Positions 10,043 through 23,146 of a DNA stretch of 24,848 bases are shown one piece after another. The translations under genes were made by a program, and so were the position numbers. Each line of letters begins with the position of its first letter. The first letter of the stretch is position 1. Below the pieces are notes generated by a model. That model saw nothing but the letters and a program-made list of their open reading frames with translations. It did no database searches and had not been told where the DNA came from. This DNA comes from a virus: positions 1 through 24,848 of the IMG/VR virus record IMGVR_UViG_3300017952_000097, one strand, 5' to 3'.

Positions 10043-10289
10043 AGAGGAACTACAAAACGAATGGCGTAACCCATACGTTCAATGGTATGCTGCTGGTATG
10101 CCATCCTTTACATCTGAAAAACTCGAGCCTTGGAAACAACTCACAGTTAAATTTAAAACACGGGAACATCGTCAGGAATTTGCTGACAAACTTGGTTACC
10201 AGTTGACTGATAAAACAAATGTGGTTTGGTATCCTGAAAAAGGTCGTGAACGTAATAATATGAATAGGTACATTGAAGAACATGAGTGA
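10020..10289 (+). CDS. small phage protein, GMPxF...WYP domain
   Basis: 89 residues from the ATG at 10020; a TTG at 10014 in the same frame is less likely. The pattern AGMPSF, then LTVKFKTREHRQEFADKLG, then TNVVWYP is a recurrent phage domain, often seen beside DNA-modification genes or fused to ParB-like or methyltransferase proteins. The upstream gene carries the second half of the same pattern, so the two are likely relatives. The stop overlaps the start of the TAGT-type glycosyltransferase. Function unknown; the context suggests the modification pathway. Confidence 0.65.
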   Translation: MYKKVDTIEELQNEWRNPYVQWYAAGMPSFTSEKLEPWKQLTVKFKTREHRQEFADKLGYQLTDKTNVVWYPEKGRERNNMNRYIEEHE

Positions 10290-11235
10290 GGAATTTACTA
10301 CACGATATCCGATCTACATTATTTCCAAAGGTCGGCACGAATCACGTTACACCAGTAGAGCCTTGGAGGGCATGGGTGTTCCGTATTATATTGCGGTCGA
10401 GCCACAAGAGTATGACGACTACTGCTCTGTAATTGATCCCAAAAAAGTTTTAAAACTTCCTTTTAGTAATCACGGCAAGGGCTCTGGTCCTGCTCGTAAC
10501 TGGTGCTGGGAACATTCTCAGGCTAACGGTTTTAAACGCCATTGGTTAATGGATGATAATATTGCAGAGTTTTGGCGTGTACATAAAAACAAACGGTACC
10601 GTGTTGACAAGGGTTCAGCTATTTTCCGTTCTACCGAGGACTTTGTTGATCGGTTTGAAAACGTGGCATTGGCTGGTCTCCAATATAAATTCTTTGTGGT
10701 TGACGACTATGACTACCCACCTTATATTCTGAACACTCGGATCATGAGTTGTTTTCTTATTGATAATGACTGCCCAGAAAAATGGCGTGGTAAATTCAAC
10801 GAGGACGTAGACTTATCTATCCGTGTACTCAAGCGTGGGCTGTGTACCATGTTGATGTATGGATTCCTGTGTGGTAAACTTCGTACTGGTACCGTTAAGG
10901 GTGGTAATACCACTGAGGTTTATAATAACTACGAAGAGGATGCTTCTCTCCGTAAATCACAAATGCTTAAGGAAATGCACCCAGATGTGGTCACATTGGT
11001 TGAGCGTTATGGTCGTACACACCACCATGTTGATCTTGATGCCATTAAAACGGCAGATGGTCAACCTGCTCGACAAAATCCACTTATTCTGAAAAAAGAT
11101 GTTGACATAGTCAATAAAGTGGATAATTATGGTATGAAATTAATGCGTGAATATGGAACACCAGAACAGTATGAGGATCCGTCTTTCAGTCTGGATGTGT
11201 TCCCAACTGGTAGGAAGGCTATACATGGTGGGTAA
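10282..11235 (+). CDS. TET-associated-type glycosyltransferase (TAGT)
   Basis: 317 residues from the ATG at 10282; a TTG nine bases upstream is also possible. RYPIYIISKGR at the start, GVPYYIAVEPQEYDDY, GPARNWCWEHS, RHWLMDDNI (the nucleotide-sugar DxD-like site) and FNEDVDLSIRVLKRG match the GT-A-fold TAGT family. That family was described from phages where it is thought to add sugars to oxidised or hydroxymethylated pyrimidines in DNA. No TET/JBP dioxygenase or hydroxymethylase lies in this window. It overlaps the genes on both sides (8 and 11 bases), including the epimerase, which could supply a sugar nucleotide. The family call is strong; DNA as the acceptor is inference. Confidence 0.82.
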   Translation: MSEEFTTRYPIYIISKGRHESRYTSRALEGMGVPYYIAVEPQEYDDYCSVIDPKKVLKLPFSNHGKGSGPARNWCWEHSQANGFKRHWLMDDNIAEFWRVHKNKRYRVDKGSAIFRSTEDFVDRFENVALAGLQYKFFVVDDYDYPPYILNTRIMSCFLIDNDCPEKWRGKFNEDVDLSIRVLKRGLCTMLMYGFLCGKLRTGTVKGGNTTEVYNNYEEDASLRKSQMLKEMHPDVVTLVERYGRTHHHVDLDAIKTADGQPARQNPLILKKDVDIVNKVDNYGMKLMREYGTPEQYEDPSFSLDVFPTGRKAIHGG

Positions 11236-12085
11236 AAATTTAACAGTTTTGGTAACCGGTGGTGCTGGTTTTGTTGGCAGTCATTTATGTGAACGCCTAA
11301 CAGGGATGGGCCATTCTGTAATTTCGCTTGATAATTATTTCACAGGCAGTGAGGAAAATCATATTGATGGTGTGGAATATATTACAGGCTCAACAGAATG
11401 TATTAATAAAATGCGACTGCCACCCGTAGATTATGTTTACCACCTGGGAGAATATTCCAGGGTCGAACAAAGTTTTGAGGACATTGATCTTGTCCACAAA
11501 TATAATATTAAAGGAACTTTTCAGGTTCTGGAATTTGTTCGGCGCACCGGTGCCAAATTAATTTACTCTGGTTCTAGTACTAAATTTGCAGATCAGTCTG
11601 ATGGTTATGTGATGAGTCCTTATGCTTGGTCCAAAGCAACCAATACTGAACTCGTTAAAAATTATGGCGAATGGTACGGCATTAAATATGCTATTACATA
11701 TTTTTATAACGTATATGGTCCTCGTGAAATTCAGACTGGTAAATATGCAACTTTAATTGCTAAATTTGCTGAGGCATCACGGTCTGGTCATGATCTTACT
11801 ATTGTCTCACCTGGAACACAGAAACGTAACTTTACTCATGTCAGCGACATCGTTGATGCACTAATTCTTATTGGTGAGTATGGTGATGGTGATGAATATG
11901 GTATTGGGCATCCTGACTCATATACGATTCTTGAGGTCGCTGCTATGTACAATCGGAATACCAAAATGTTACCCGAGCGTCGTGGTAACCGTATGTCAGC
12001 ACCAGTTGTTTCAGAAAAAACACAAAACCTAGGATGGGTTCCTCGGAAAAACCTAAAGGATTACATTAGGGAACTAAATATATGA
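11225..12085 (+). CDS. NAD-dependent sugar epimerase/dehydratase
   Basis: 286 residues from the ATG at 11225, chosen because it has the ribosome site AGGAAGG and places the Rossmann motif TGGAGFVGSHL at residues 11-21. The longer open frame from 11147 lies inside the glycosyltransferase gene. The short-chain dehydrogenase catalytic pair is Y133/K137 (SPYAWSKAT). It resembles UDP-glucose/galactose 4-epimerases, interconverting or dehydrating nucleotide sugars; the exact substrate is unknown. It is somewhat shorter than the usual 310-340. Its start overlaps the glycosyltransferase by 11 bases. Confidence 0.88.
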   Translation: MVGKNLTVLVTGGAGFVGSHLCERLTGMGHSVISLDNYFTGSEENHIDGVEYITGSTECINKMRLPPVDYVYHLGEYSRVEQSFEDIDLVHKYNIKGTFQVLEFVRRTGAKLIYSGSSTKFADQSDGYVMSPYAWSKATNTELVKNYGEWYGIKYAITYFYNVYGPREIQTGKYATLIAKFAEASRSGHDLTIVSPGTQKRNFTHVSDIVDALILIGEYGDGDEYGIGHPDSYTILEVAAMYNRNTKMLPERRGNRMSAPVVSEKTQNLGWVPRKNLKDYIRELNI

Positions 12086-18071: not shown

Positions 18072-18134
18072 GGAACGCCTTACGGGTTCCGCTTCAAAAT
18101 AATCTTGCTTAATTAAAAAGGAGATAGCAAAATG
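18072..18134 (+). promoter_or_regulatory. structured hsp20 leader, possible RNA thermometer
   Basis: The leader holds a GGAAC / GTTCC hairpin (18072-18090). It then has CUUGCUU (18104-18110), whose UUGCU is complementary to AGCAA at 18126-18130 next to the AUG, with the ribosome site AGGAG (18119-18123) in the enclosed loop. UUGCU-type elements beside the ribosome site occur in ROSE thermometers of small heat-shock genes. The pairing is short, so this is a candidate only. Confidence 0.35.
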
Positions 18135-18593
18135 AATACACGTAGACTAACTACAGAACTTCTGAACGATCCGTTCTTTATTGGCTTTGACCGCGTACTT
18201 GATCGAATGAGAGACGCAACACCAGGCCAAACAAATTACCCTCCCTATAACATCGTAAAAGTTGACGAAGACAACTATGCCATTGAGTTGGCTGTCGCTG
18301 GGTTCAACAAGAATGAGCTCACTATTGAGCTTAAAGAAGGTGTTCTCTATATTGAGGGCAAAAAGAGCCATGATGATGTTGACGAATCAACTCAATATCT
18401 TCATAAAGGTATTTCGGCTCGTTCGTTCCGTCGCAGCTTCACACTTTCTGATACGATCGTTGTGAGAGGTGCCGACTTTAATGATGGTATTTTGAAGATT
18501 AATCTTGAAAATGTAATCCCTGAGGAAAAGAAACCTAGGGTCATTGAAATCGGTGGTGGTTCAACATTTGATCAAGAACTACTAACCGAATAA
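18132..18593 (+). CDS. Hsp20-family small heat-shock protein
   Basis: 153 residues. The alpha-crystallin domain runs from about 38 (PPYNIVKVDEDNYAIELAVA) to 140, with VAGFNKNELTIEL and FRRSFTLSDTIVVRGADFND, ending in a conserved-type RVIEI tail that binds neighbouring subunits. ATP-independent holdase, common in marine T4-like phages and thought to protect virion assembly or host proteins. It has its own promoter and a strong ribosome site (AAGGAG), and is followed by a terminator. Confidence 0.94.
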   Translation: MNTRRLTTELLNDPFFIGFDRVLDRMRDATPGQTNYPPYNIVKVDEDNYAIELAVAGFNKNELTIELKEGVLYIEGKKSHDDVDESTQYLHKGISARSFRRSFTLSDTIVVRGADFNDGILKINLENVIPEEKKPRVIEIGGGSTFDQELLTE

Positions 18594-18615
18594 ATTTTAT
18601 TATTATGAAGAACAG

Positions 18616-18646
18616 TAGGAGGTCGTTCAGGCCTCCTATTTTATTT
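18616..18646 (+). terminator. intrinsic terminator after hsp20
   Basis: 7-bp stem TAGGAGG / CCTCCTA with a 9-base loop, followed by TTTTATTT. It lies between hsp20 and the peroxiredoxin gene. Confidence 0.75.
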
Positions 18647-18667
18647 CACAACACACAGGAGACAAAT

Positions 18668-19228
18668 ATGAAAAACCTATGCGTACCAAATGTTACTTTT
18701 AAAACACGAGTTCGTGATGACAGTATTGATGGACCAAATCCTTACCGTTGGCAGGATGTAACAAGCAAAGACTATTTTGATGGTAAAAGAGTCCTAGTAT
18801 TTTCACTTCCAGGTGCATTTACACCAACATGTTCCACATATCAAGTTCCAGGCTTTGAAGAAAACTATAACAAGATTCGTGATCTTGGTATTGATGAAAT
18901 TTACTGTGTATCAGTAAACGATTCGTTTGTAATGAATAAGTGGGCAAAGGATCAATGTGTCGAGCGCATTAAAATGATCCCAGATGGTAATGGCCAATTC
19001 ACTCGTCAAATGGGAATGCTTGTCGAAAAGGAAAATCTTGGTTTCGGTACTCGTTCTTGGCGTTATGCGATGGTTGTCAATAACGGTGTCGTAGAAGCTT
19101 GGTTTGAAGAACCAGGTCGCCGTGATAATGCTGACGATGATCCATATGGTGTCACATCACCAGAAAATGTTCTTGAGTATTTGGAAAATCAAAGCACAAC
19201 TTCTGAGAGGGAATTAGAGGTAGCTTAA
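18668..19228 (+). CDS. peroxiredoxin (Prx5/AhpC-TSA family)
   Basis: 186 residues from the ATG at 18668, preceded by CAGGAG; the longer frame from 18605 would begin before the hsp20 terminator and is rejected. The active site PGAFTPTCSTYQVPGF has peroxidatic C55 with T52, as in Prx5-type enzymes. The later segments VSVNDSFVMNKWAKDQ and RYAMVVNNGVVEAWFEEPG also fit. It reduces peroxides using a thiol donor and may protect the infected cell from oxidative stress. No sigma70 promoter is obvious between it and the hsp20 terminator, so it may depend on read-through. Confidence 0.92.
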   Translation: MKNLCVPNVTFKTRVRDDSIDGPNPYRWQDVTSKDYFDGKRVLVFSLPGAFTPTCSTYQVPGFEENYNKIRDLGIDEIYCVSVNDSFVMNKWAKDQCVERIKMIPDGNGQFTRQMGMLVEKENLGFGTRSWRYAMVVNNGVVEAWFEEPGRRDNADDDPYGVTSPENVLEYLENQSTTSERELEVA

Positions 19229-19387: not shown

Positions 19388-19627
19388 ATGACTATTTCAA
19401 CAATAGCGGGTGTCAACTTCCCCGTGTTCAATATACCATCTTTTTTCTCTCGTCTTGCCATTAAATATAAAGCATGGGTAGCAGCAAAAGCAACGGTCAA
19501 AGAATTATCCTCACTATCTGACAGAGAACTGGCAGACATTGGACTTCATCGTGGTGCAATCAAAGGTATTGCTCAGGAACATTATGATGAAATTGTTACC
19601 AATGCTAATCTAAAGGGGAGGGTGTAA
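19388..19627 (+). CDS. DUF1127 (YjiS-like) small protein
   Basis: 79 residues. KELSSLSDRELADIGLHRGAI (about 38-58) is the hallmark of DUF1127, a family of short proteins common in alpha- and gammaproteobacteria, often linked to stress or phosphate responses and in some cases RNA binding. The N-terminal 30 residues are hydrophobic or aromatic. Ribosome site AAGGAG. The end overlaps the next gene as TAATG. It has probably been taken from or exchanged with a host; its role in infection is unknown. Confidence 0.88.
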   Translation: MTISTIAGVNFPVFNIPSFFSRLAIKYKAWVAAKATVKELSSLSDRELADIGLHRGAIKGIAQEHYDEIVTNANLKGRV

Positions 19628-20201: not shown

Positions 20202-20234
20202 AACTGAGGGACCTTCGGGTCCCTTTTTAGTTTA
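20201..20234. terminator. bidirectional intrinsic terminator between convergent modules
   Basis: GGGACC, tetraloop TTCG, GGTCCC (20208-20223) followed by TTTTT on the plus strand; an outer AAACT / AGTTT pair can extend it. On the minus strand the same stem is followed by TCAGTTTT. It overlaps the stop of the minus-strand tape-measure-like gene and separates early plus-strand genes from late virion genes. Confidence 0.9.
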
Positions 20235-22278
20235 CACCTTGTGGTAGGATTCTAAACGGTCCACCTCCACCACCACCGTTATTAAAGAGCGTTGTGGTTT
20301 GCATTACACTACCACCTTGAATAACATTATTAACATTAGGTGCGACAGTAGGTGCGTTATGAATTACGATTGGATTGCCACCACTAGATGAACCTTCTAC
20401 TCTTGCCAAGACACCTTCCATTCCTGATACACGGGGTTCCATATTTTTCTGTAAACTATATACCTGAGCCAAAAGATCACCTGCGGCACTATTTCTAGGC
20501 ACGACCGCCTCTTTACCATGTAACATTACAAGACGCCCATCACCAAAGTCTTTAAAGCCGTTTGTTCCCTTATTATATTCAGGTATTCCAAGATCCTCCA
20601 GCGATGCACCACCTGCTAGTTCTCGGGCCATATCTATTTGGCTGCGACTAAATCTTATACCGCCAAAATCTGCCATATTATTTCGACTAAGCCTTCTGCG
20701 CTGCCCCTTTGTCAATTTACCACCAGCCTCAAAAAATGATTGTAAACTATCATATTCAGTTGTATTACCTTGGCGATCCGTTATTGATAATGCCTGTGAT
20801 GTTACTCTTTCAAAGTCGCCGCGCTTAGCAATTGATGGATCGTCACCAAGCAGCATTGATATAACCCATACACCAAATTCATCCGGTGTCAACATGCCAG
20901 CAGCAATAGCAGCACCAGCACCACCTAATAGAGCTCCCCAAGGACCACCCATTGCAAAACCAGCAATTGCCCCTATGGAACCAGCACCACTAGATACAAT
21001 CAACGTACCTACGATTGGACCTGCAGCTTGAATTTTTTCCTGATGAGATCTTTTCTTGTCAACATCTCCGAAAATTACATATAAATTATATACGTCATAT
21101 ATTGTAAATGCGACACCAGCAATAACAAATGCTCTTACCGCATATTTAAAGAATTTTGAATATTTTGGATCCAACGTCTTAGCTAATTCAGCAGCGGCAT
21201 CATCTAGGCTTGCAAACGTTCCGCCTTCCGCGTTTCTCAAAACAGTAGTACCATTGGCGTTCGTAGTAAGATTAAACTTTTTTAATTTTCCAGCATCTTG
21301 TTTTATTTGTGCTTTTTGTTCCGGTGTCATACCTGATGTTGGAGATTTAGATATTAAGTCAGCTTTTGCCTGAGGCGGAAGATTAGCTGGATCACCACTT
21401 GTAGTGGTTTTTGGGGTTGGAGATGTTTGTGTTTGTGTTTTTGTTTTTGTATTTGGCCCATCGCCTGGGCCGTCTGCATTTATACCATTTGTTCTTTTAA
21501 CCGCATTCTCGACCGCCTTTTCAATGTCTGCTTGCATCTTAGCAATTCTTCGTTTGTCAAGAAATCTCTTATACATAGCCACACCAGTAATTAATGCTAA
21601 ATTTAATTCTAATAAATTATCCCAAATAAAGCTTGCGACGCCAGACCATGAAGAAATTGATTCTTTAAAATCTGCCCAGCCCTCTCTTGCTGCGGCAATA
21701 TCGTCTTTTAAGCCTTTGAGTTGTTTATTTAATTCAATCATGGTTTCATCAAATTTTATTTGAGATACATTATATAATTTTGTGGCAGTATCTCCAATGG
21801 AAGTTTCCATTTTTGTAAACGCACCATCATATTTTTTGTCAATATATCCCTTTGCCAAATTATATAATGCGAAACCACCAGCACCTATAATAAACAGATC
21901 CTTTAAATTCCTCATTATGCCGCCTTCCATTAAAGCACCAAGAACCGATTCTTTTTTTCCTTGATCGGTTGCTTGGGTTTGAGCAGCGGTTGGTGTTTTG
22001 GTATAATCAGGTTTATCTTTTTCGGTGTCTCTAGCAAGTTCAGCAAGATCAGCCTCACGTCTCCTTGCCTCTGCAACCTCCTTGGCTATTCCTGCTTGTT
22101 CTCTCAGAATGTCTGTCTGAAACATCATTTCATTTCTGATATTTTGAAATACCGGCATGAATTTATCTAGTTTAATACTGACTTCTCTAATAGAGTTCTT
22201 GCCAGTATTTCGCACTAGATCGCCCTCGGCCTTGAGCCTTGCCAAAATAGCCTTTGTTTCGTCTGACATATCAGCCAT
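20227..22278 (-). CDS. tape-measure-like tail protein
   Basis: 683 residues. The N-terminal 100 are helical and charged. Hydrophobic stretches follow near 130-150 (DLFIIGAGGFALYNLAKG), about 385-410, and an Ala/Gly-rich one at about 430-470. A Thr/Gln/Pro-rich linker lies near 275-300, and the C-terminus is Asn/Gly-rich (FNNGGGGGGPF). Length and composition suit a tail-length ruler or hub protein like T4 gp29 (590), and its place directly after the gp26/frameshift gene is where tape-measure genes sit in long-tailed phages. I do not recognise a sequence match, so the name rests on position and composition. The stop lies in the terminator. Confidence 0.6.
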   Translation of the reverse strand: MADMSDETKAILARLKAEGDLVRNTGKNSIREVSIKLDKFMPVFQNIRNEMMFQTDILREQAGIAKEVAEARRREADLAELARDTEKDKPDYTKTPTAAQTQATDQGKKESVLGALMEGGIMRNLKDLFIIGAGGFALYNLAKGYIDKKYDGAFTKMETSIGDTATKLYNVSQIKFDETMIELNKQLKGLKDDIAAAREGWADFKESISSWSGVASFIWDNLLELNLALITGVAMYKRFLDKRRIAKMQADIEKAVENAVKRTNGINADGPGDGPNTKTKTQTQTSPTPKTTTSGDPANLPPQAKADLISKSPTSGMTPEQKAQIKQDAGKLKKFNLTTNANGTTVLRNAEGGTFASLDDAAAELAKTLDPKYSKFFKYAVRAFVIAGVAFTIYDVYNLYVIFGDVDKKRSHQEKIQAAGPIVGTLIVSSGAGSIGAIAGFAMGGPWGALLGGAGAAIAAGMLTPDEFGVWVISMLLGDDPSIAKRGDFERVTSQALSITDRQGNTTEYDSLQSFFEAGGKLTKGQRRRLSRNNMADFGGIRFSRSQIDMARELAGGASLEDLGIPEYNKGTNGFKDFGDGRLVMLHGKEAVVPRNSAAGDLLAQVYSLQKNMEPRVSGMEGVLARVEGSSSGGNPIVIHNAPTVAPNVNNVIQGGSVMQTTTLFNNGGGGGGPFRILPQGVN

Positions 22279-22280
22279 AG

Positions 22281-22451
22281 TTAGTTACCTTCGTTTTGCT
22301 TTTCTATATAATTAATTAACATTTGGAAATATAAATCTCTTTCATAAGGCATCAGATTTTCAATATCACTTATTGAGTATTTATGGTGCTGAGCCAGGGA
22401 GAATGTCATCTGATAATATTCACCCAAACTCGTGTGGCTCAGCACTAGATA
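22281..22451 (-). CDS. -1 frameshift extension of gp26 (tail assembly chaperone-like)
   Basis: This frame has no suitable independent start, but is open for 56 codons if ribosomes slip -1 at the T7 run at the end of gp26. The first codon is TAT at 22451. Its protein contains SLGEYYQMTFSLAQHHKYS and LMPYERDLYFQMLINYIEK, sequence that looks like real protein and like the C-terminal part of frameshifted tail chaperones. The stop at 22283-22281 is 2 bases before the tape-measure ATG. The fusion would be about 288 residues. By analogy with the lambda G-GT system, the extension would bind the tape measure or tube subunits during tail assembly. Confidence 0.72.
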   Translation of the reverse strand, partial: YLVLSHTSLGEYYQMTFSLAQHHKYSISDIENLMPYERDLYFQMLINYIEKQNEGN

Positions 22452-22457
22452 AAAAAA
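22386..22457 (-). promoter_or_regulatory. programmed -1 frameshift signal
   Basis: On the minus strand: in-frame slippery heptamer T TTT TTT (22457-22451), a 5-base spacer ATCTA, then an 11-bp perfect stem GTGCTGAGCCA / TGGCTCAGCAC (22445-22435 with 22396-22386). A second inner stem (GGGTGAAT / ATTCTCCC, one mismatch) abuts the outer one. The zero-frame stop TAG partly lies in the spacer. Heptamer, spacing and structure all match known -1 signals. Confidence 0.75.
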
Positions 22458-23146
22458 CTCCTTAATCCTTCTATCACAAATGTTCTTTCGTTTCCGTTTG
22501 AATTCTTATATTTCATTTCATGTCTAATTTTCGGCATTGTTTCAAAAAAGTTTTGAACACCACGCACTACATCACTAGTCATATTATCCATAAATTCATC
22601 AATCTGTTCATCAGAATAATCGTCAAAACTATAAACCTCATCGTCTGATGCAACCTTATCAAGACAAGACGTCATAATAAAATAATTGGCAAGAGGATCC
22701 TCCTCAATAAGACTTGAAATTTTGATAAATTGATCGATTGTAGGATATTTTAAAAATAAAGTATAATCATCATTAAGTTTAATTTTGTTTGTATGATCCT
22801 CGTTTGTAGAAACCGTTAAATCGTCAATATTAAAACTAACCTCAACTTTCTCTTCGGTCTCATCATCCGTAACCATAAATGCAATATTATTATTTACAGA
22901 TTTTGCTCTCAGATGAAGTAGGATATATTCCAAATCAAACATAGGAAGTTTACCCACATCAACATCCACAATACAGTTATTAATAATCTGCTTAGTTGCT
23001 AGAATTTCCTGTTCTGGATCATCGGATTGCTGAGCAACCAAAAGTATTTTTTCTTCTTTTACTGTAAATCCTCTATATTTGATCTTTTCACCAGTAGAAG
23101 GTAATTTCAATTCAAATAAGGGCAAATCAATTTTAGGCAAAGACAT
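22445..23146 (-). CDS. 26: gp26-like baseplate hub protein / tail chaperone (zero frame)
   Basis: 233 residues; T4 gp26 is 208. FELKLPSTGEKIKYRGFTVKEEKILL at the start, KQIINNCIVDVDVGKLPMFDLEYILLHLRAKSVNN in the middle and a C-terminal acidic half match the T4 baseplate gp26 family (quoted here as key stretches: LPSTGEKI, VKEEKILL, LPMFDLEY). gp26 is needed for hub assembly in T4. The protein ends SFFI just after the slippery T run, so part of its translation may continue as the fusion. Ribosome site AAGGAG before the ATG. Confidence 0.85.
   Translation of the reverse strand: MSLPKIDLPLFELKLPSTGEKIKYRGFTVKEEKILLVAQQSDDPEQEILATKQIINNCIVDVDVGKLPMFDLEYILLHLRAKSVNNNIAFMVTDDETEEKVEVSFNIDDLTVSTNEDHTNKIKLNDDYTLFLKYPTIDQFIKISSLIEEDPLANYFIMTSCLDKVASDDEVYSFDDYSDEQIDEFMDNMTSDVVRGVQNFFETMPKIRHEMKYKNSNGNERTFVIEGLRSFFI

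Follow-up and report, generated by a model that had tools for sequence, protein, structure and literature searches.

A probable −1 frameshift signal links gp26 to a gp51-type domain in an uncultured lineage of T4-type phages

The gp26 locus

The window, by which we mean the whole 24,848-base stretch of DNA analysed here, is an IMG/VR virus record from an uncultured marine T4-type lineage. All features of the locus lie on its minus strand. The gp26 gene (22445-23146) encodes 233 aa and would be the short tail-assembly chaperone (TAC-N). In the zero frame, its 3' end reads AGG AGT TTT TTT ATC TAG. This end includes a slippery heptamer in the gp26 frame, T TTT TTT (22451-22457), followed after one codon by the gp26 stop, TAG (22445-22447). 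Both the heptamer and the position of the stop are kept in relatives.

Directly downstream lies a bipartite secondary structure. A 5-nt spacer, ATCTA (22446-22450), leads from the heptamer to a perfect 11-bp outer stem, in which the 5' arm GTGCTGAGCCA (22435-22445) pairs with the 3' arm TGGCTCAGCAC (22386-22396). The minimum free energy fold places an inner hairpin (22397-22425) between these arms, with residues 22425-22413 paired to 22409-22397 around a 3-nt loop. This near-perfect inner stem is stacked on the outer one with no gap on the 3' side, and 9 nt remain unpaired on the 5' side. The site thus presents the elements of a canonical −1 frameshift signal: a zero-frame heptamer; a 5-nt spacer, within the 5-9 range; and a downstream structure.

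The −1 frame remains open for 56 codons plus a stop (22281-22451), and encodes a product that reads YLVLSH...KQNEGN. Translation through both frames would yield a predicted gp26-gp51 fusion of 288 aa. The TAA stop of the extension (22283-22281) falls 2 nt ahead of the ATG (22278) of a 683-aa tape-measure-like gene (20227-22278). The first-pass annotation had described the heptamer, 5-nt spacer, 11-bp stem, near-perfect second stem, 56-codon open frame, and 2-nt gap; on re-reading, each is found where it was placed.

The 683-aa gene shows no family match to Pfam and PHROG profiles. Its own profile has no detectable similarity to T4 gp29, and no convincing match to the candidates from RHph, KVP40, and S-SM2. 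Relatives have genes of 548-690 aa at this position, most of them no more than a few bases away, and the equivalent gene of RHph_I1_18 matches several tape-measure PHROGs. The gene is therefore the likely tape measure, assigned as such by its position.

gp26 and the gp51-type extension

Profile searches place both parts of the predicted fusion. The gp26 protein matches Pfam PF12322 (T4_baseplate; E 1.5e-59), spanning model positions 4-218 of 219, and phrog_150 (baseplate hub; E 1.1e-65); hhalign pairs it with T4 gp26 at 98.3% probability over 200 columns. Residues 2-54 of the extension match phrog_634 (baseplate hub assembly catalyst; E 2e-21), and no Pfam model was found for the extension. 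By this profile match, the extension is no anonymous reading frame but a TAC-C domain from a known family (gp51/phrog_634). Its gp51 identity had gone unrecognised in the first-pass annotation.

The full length of T4 gp51 is itself covered by a phrog_150 match, its C-terminus also matches phrog_634 (1.2e-23), and its tail aligns beyond the end of gp26. T4 gp51 therefore combines a gp26-like domain and the TAC-C extension in one frame. Alignments by hhalign are weak, both for gp26 against gp51 and for the TAC-C alignment against T4 gp51 alone (18% probability, E 0.0013), and the PHROG profiles give the stronger support to the gp51 identification. The window is a fragment of the virus genome and contains only one gp26 match; a second, in-frame gp26-gp51 fusion gene, in the T4 arrangement, was not found within these 24.8 kb.

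AlphaFold models the extension as a run of helices (pLDDT 75), and gp26 with a pLDDT of 83.6. Comparison of the gp26 model with PDB folds yields no significant match: 3fgx ranks first (E 0.9), and 2ob9, the HK97 TAC, ranks fifth (E 1.7). Both 2ob9 and the TAC-like 3fgx have been placed in the TAC family (PMC9603447). Two structures of this family appear among the five best matches of the model at E-values near 1, which is suggestive only. When solved structures were searched by sequence with the profiles of gp26 and TAC-C, nothing relevant came up.

Conservation across relatives

Loci of relatives were collected from IMG/VR with the window gp26 and four other gp26 sequences as queries, and named phages were added. 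A tblastn search with the 288-aa fusion matched 659 phage records; each of the 60 best that were listed shows the match in two pieces. The best identity to a named phage is 43.6%. At 245 loci, 186 of them distinct, the gp26 stop is readable and TAC-C is matched. The domain lies in the −1 frame at every one, and at none of the 245 in frame 0 or +1. T4 is the only case in which a gp26 stop is followed by no TAC-C match, and it has the two-gene arrangement. The 2022 abstract of Vladimirov and colleagues is said to describe frameshifting as apparently conserved in several T4-like groups, with the T4 group having separate genes 26 and 51; the pattern found here agrees with that account.

The first-pass annotation had proposed an alignment of gp26 loci as a check. 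Across the collected loci, the heptamer keeps its register in 184 of the 186 distinct ones, where it reads either T TTT TTC or T TTT TTT. The preceding codon specifies S, N, D, T, A, G, or H, and always ends in T. Among 185 distinct loci, 166 have the zero-frame stop one codon past the heptamer, and TAG, TAA, and TGA are all in use. A naive codon-usage null, which ignores relatedness, gives 10^-81 for the conservation of the heptamer. There are two departures from T TTT TTY: one locus (L028) has G TTT TTT, and RHph_I1_18 (L007) has T TTT TTA, situated farther upstream of the stop.

The −1 frame is free of stops in each of 53 distinct close relatives; the other two frames are interrupted by stops in every one of them. 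Entropy by codon position in these relatives is 0.64, 0.37, and 1.10 bits, the third position being most variable, and the conserved stretch of the −1 frame starts right at the heptamer. Runs of seven Ts are about three times rarer in the window than expected from dinucleotide shuffles (8 versus 24.7). This scarcity, together with the conserved heptamer and the open −1 frame, leads us to reject the chance coincidence of a T7 run with an open frame.

The putative stimulatory hairpin

The RNA folds at −27.6 kcal/mol, compared with a shuffle mean of −13.6 (z = −4.75), and none of 200 shuffles is as stable. The inner pairing occurs in the individual folds of most relatives; it is absent from the consensus structure. 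Covariation of the outer stem was analysed in 46 distinct relatives that share 59% gp26 identity or more. Standard pairs occupy 92.5% of the cells of the 11-bp stem, whereas sliding the partner by 1-3 columns leaves only 19.8-52.6% paired. Changes on both sides occur in 30 cells, and 0 of 500 shuffles score as high; because the sequences are related, the shuffle and Fisher figures for the stem are not strict probabilities.

Both arms of the stem are coding, and nulls based on synonymous codons were therefore run. When synonymous codons are permuted within columns, pairing rises to 90.1% at most, and none of 2000 permutations reaches the observed 92.5%. When the codons are synonymously recoded, mean pairing is 72.9%, with a maximum of 78.1% in 2000. 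Pair 7 provides the clearest example: A-U, U-A, U-G, and G-C are all seen. Here, the third base of an Ala/Val codon varies with the first position of a Ser/Cys codon (12:1 versus 1:29), and on a gp26 tree the 5' base has changed 8 times or more.

The well-kept core across the clade consists of pairs 3-11 only; pair 2 is C-A in 17 of the 46 relatives. The distance from the heptamer to this conserved 9-bp core is 7 nt. Folds with z < −2 against composition shuffles are found in all 45 folded close relatives, in 45% of cyanophage-type loci, and in 56% of other loci. A stem of the same form was not found in the named cyanophages, KVP40, or CC2. The stimulator therefore depends on lineage, whereas the heptamer is general.

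Some distant T4-type loci (among them L175, L182, L214, and L227) have a stem at the same place downstream of the heptamer, made of other base pairs. The same geometry thus is possibly ancestral, or possibly has arisen repeatedly. We tentatively suggest, with somewhat less than even confidence, that the hairpin of the clade is a dedicated driver whose arms occupy codons of two invariant gp51 motifs, L-x-L-C/S-H and A/V-Q-H-H, with protein and stem co-evolving through wobble positions; this geometry, whether ancestral or repeated, may be undescribed.

Proposed mechanism and its alternatives

The signal is real and, judged by sequence comparison, very probably directs functional −1 programmed frameshifting. 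We hold with high confidence that −1 programmed ribosomal frameshifting would produce two proteins from this locus, gp26 (TAC-N) and gp26-gp51 (TAC-NC), as the short and long tail-assembly chaperones. Most ribosomes would terminate at the TAG and release the 233-aa gp26. A minority, held up on U UUU UUU by the hairpin 3' of it, would slip back by one base. The slipped ribosomes would then read the 56 codons of the −1 frame to make the 288-aa fusion, with its C-terminal helical domain of the gp51 family. By analogy to lambda gpG and gpGT, both forms may coat the tape measure, presumably the product of the next gene, and hand it over in tail assembly. The sequences establish the signal, the homology of the extension, and its conservation and the covariation among relatives; slippage, its rate, and the chaperone function are the steps that we infer.

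Might gp51 instead be translated separately? Reinitiation at the GTG (22445) that overlaps the TAG, or initiation there through an upstream AAGGAG, would yield a free 54-aa gp51, and most public records annotate the small downstream gene in this way. The window does offer the overlapping GTG and, 12 nt 5' of it, the Shine-Dalgarno-like AAGGAG (22458-22463), a motif that is not conserved in relatives. The second −1 codon is ATG in 27 and GTG in 17 of 186 distinct relatives, and a separate gp51-type gene is annotated in the S-SM2, phiN3, KVP40, and RHph_I1_18 records. However, 36 of the 186 distinct loci lack any ATG, GTG, or TTG within nine codons past the stop, and a Shine-Dalgarno-like site precedes any candidate start in only 7 of 186. 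Separate initiation also leaves unexplained the heptamer and the covarying stem just 3' of it, and runs counter to two further facts: the −1 frame is conserved from the heptamer onward; and in T4 the gp51 domain and a gp26-like part form one in-frame fusion. Given the 36 loci without a start, separate initiation is very unlikely and mostly rejected across loci, though less firmly for this window considered alone.

T runs can provoke polymerase slippage. Slippage during transcription of the T7 run would generate mRNAs one base shorter or two bases longer, fusing the frames without a ribosomal slip, and some relatives do have eight Ts. Such slippage accounts for neither the exact codon register nor the covarying RNA stem at ribosome spacing, which a polymerase would not need. 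It is also made unlikely by the 133 of 185 distinct loci that have T TTT TTC and hence no T7 run in the heptamer; overall, we regard it as highly improbable. An error of sequencing or assembly could have split one in-frame gp26-gp51 gene at the homopolymer: such runs are prone to errors, and gp51 of T4 is itself fused in frame. The comparative data, independent contigs, and isolate genomes refute it, leaving a negligible chance: the same −1 relation recurs at 186 distinct loci from many samples and in six isolate genomes, mostly with T6C; a second contig is identical to the window at the locus; and the zero-frame stop keeps its place with all three stop codons.

A further alternative accepts the frameshift and denies the hairpin a role, viewing it as a coding by-product of the motifs LxLC/SH and A/V-QHH that provides no stimulation. 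Both arms do lie in conserved codons, and the same stem is missing from the named cyanophages, KVP40, and CC2. Yet the observed pairing (92.5%) exceeds the maxima from both synonymous recoding (78.1%) and codon permutation (90.1%), the wobble base covaries with its partner, and z is below −2 in 45 of 45 folded close relatives. A hairpin of this passive kind is unlikely. Programmed ribosomal frameshifting is our preferred reading of the locus.

Other genes in the window

Several plus-strand genes bear on the biology of this virus. A gene at 19388-19627 encodes a DUF1127 protein (PF06568, 1.9e-12). DUF1127 proteins are typical of Alphaproteobacteria, and the presence of such a gene in a phage hints at the host. 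An Hsp20 chaperone gene (18132-18593; PF00011) adjoins a peroxiredoxin gene (18605-19228; Redoxin, PF08534), and the two represent host-like stress functions in a phage. A TET-associated glycosyltransferase (10273-11235, plus strand; PF20691, 1.1e-45) is encoded beside an NAD-dependent epimerase (11147-12085), a pair that suggests modified DNA bases.

Annotation and significance

In public records, the extension is listed as a small protein of its own, carries a hypothetical label, or goes unannotated. A joined gp26-gp51 gene is annotated in none of six phages with the frameshift-type locus, S-SM2, phiN3, KVP40, CC2, RHph_I1_18, and P-RSM3 (L003-L008); the CC2 and P-RSM3 records list no gene over the extension. 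T4 gp51, the "baseplate hub assembly catalyst", is essential, and its function has been called unknown (PMC3004832). From the sequences compared here, gp51 in most of the T4-type phages examined reads as the C-terminal portion that a frameshift adds to gp26. Correct annotation would change the reading of both gp26 and gp51 in cyanophages and other T4-type phages. The marine lineage is abundant in the metagenomic collection, and its covarying stem is a candidate stimulator that lends itself to a clean test.

Comparison with known systems

Frameshifting in T4-type chaperone genes has been described before. Vladimirov, Gautam, and Davidson (2022, Virology 566:9-15) identified the T4-like tail-assembly chaperones; in the passage of PMC12846349 that cites their study, poly-T tracts are the −1 slippery sequences of T4-like TAC-N genes. 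Citing the same study, a passage of PMC10885494 describes some T4-like phages as having a separate short gene and a fused long gene. The first-pass annotation was thus mistaken to treat a frameshift on a T4-type gp26 as one not previously described, although its reading of the site as a −1 frameshift that opens a tail-assembly chaperone extension is strongly supported by comparison across relatives. The type of frameshift being known, our additions are the covariation of the stem, which is the main one; the gp51 identity of the extension; and the breadth of conservation.

As far as these citing passages describe them, the reported T4-like gp26/gp51 chaperones share with the window the gene family, the downstream gp51 domain, and the poly-T −1 site. 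The window differs in representing an uncultured lineage (43.6% identity at best to a named phage) and in having a strong covarying stem. T4 genes 26 and 51 encode a homologous gp26 and a gp51 composed of a gp26-like domain plus the TAC-C tail. They differ in being two separate genes, such that the long form is made without a frameshift.

The slippery heptamer of phage lambda is G GGA AAG. The window instead has T TTT TTT and a clear 3' stem, and it is compared to lambda here in its arrangement. That arrangement, shared by lambda G/GT and other long-tailed phages (Xu, Hendrix & Duda 2004), comprises a short product, a −1 slip near the 3' end of its gene, and a C-terminal extension, all 5' of the tape measure gene or, in the window, of its likely counterpart. 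Likewise, the TAC locus of the Vandenendeviridae and Andersonviridae, exemplified by Pseudomonas phage Adele (PMC12846349), shifts by −1 at a T-rich motif that closes TAC-N, and its −1 frame has no stops in any of the genomes. Its motif is GTTTTT, not the canonical T TTT TTY heptamer, and here too the comparison is of arrangement.
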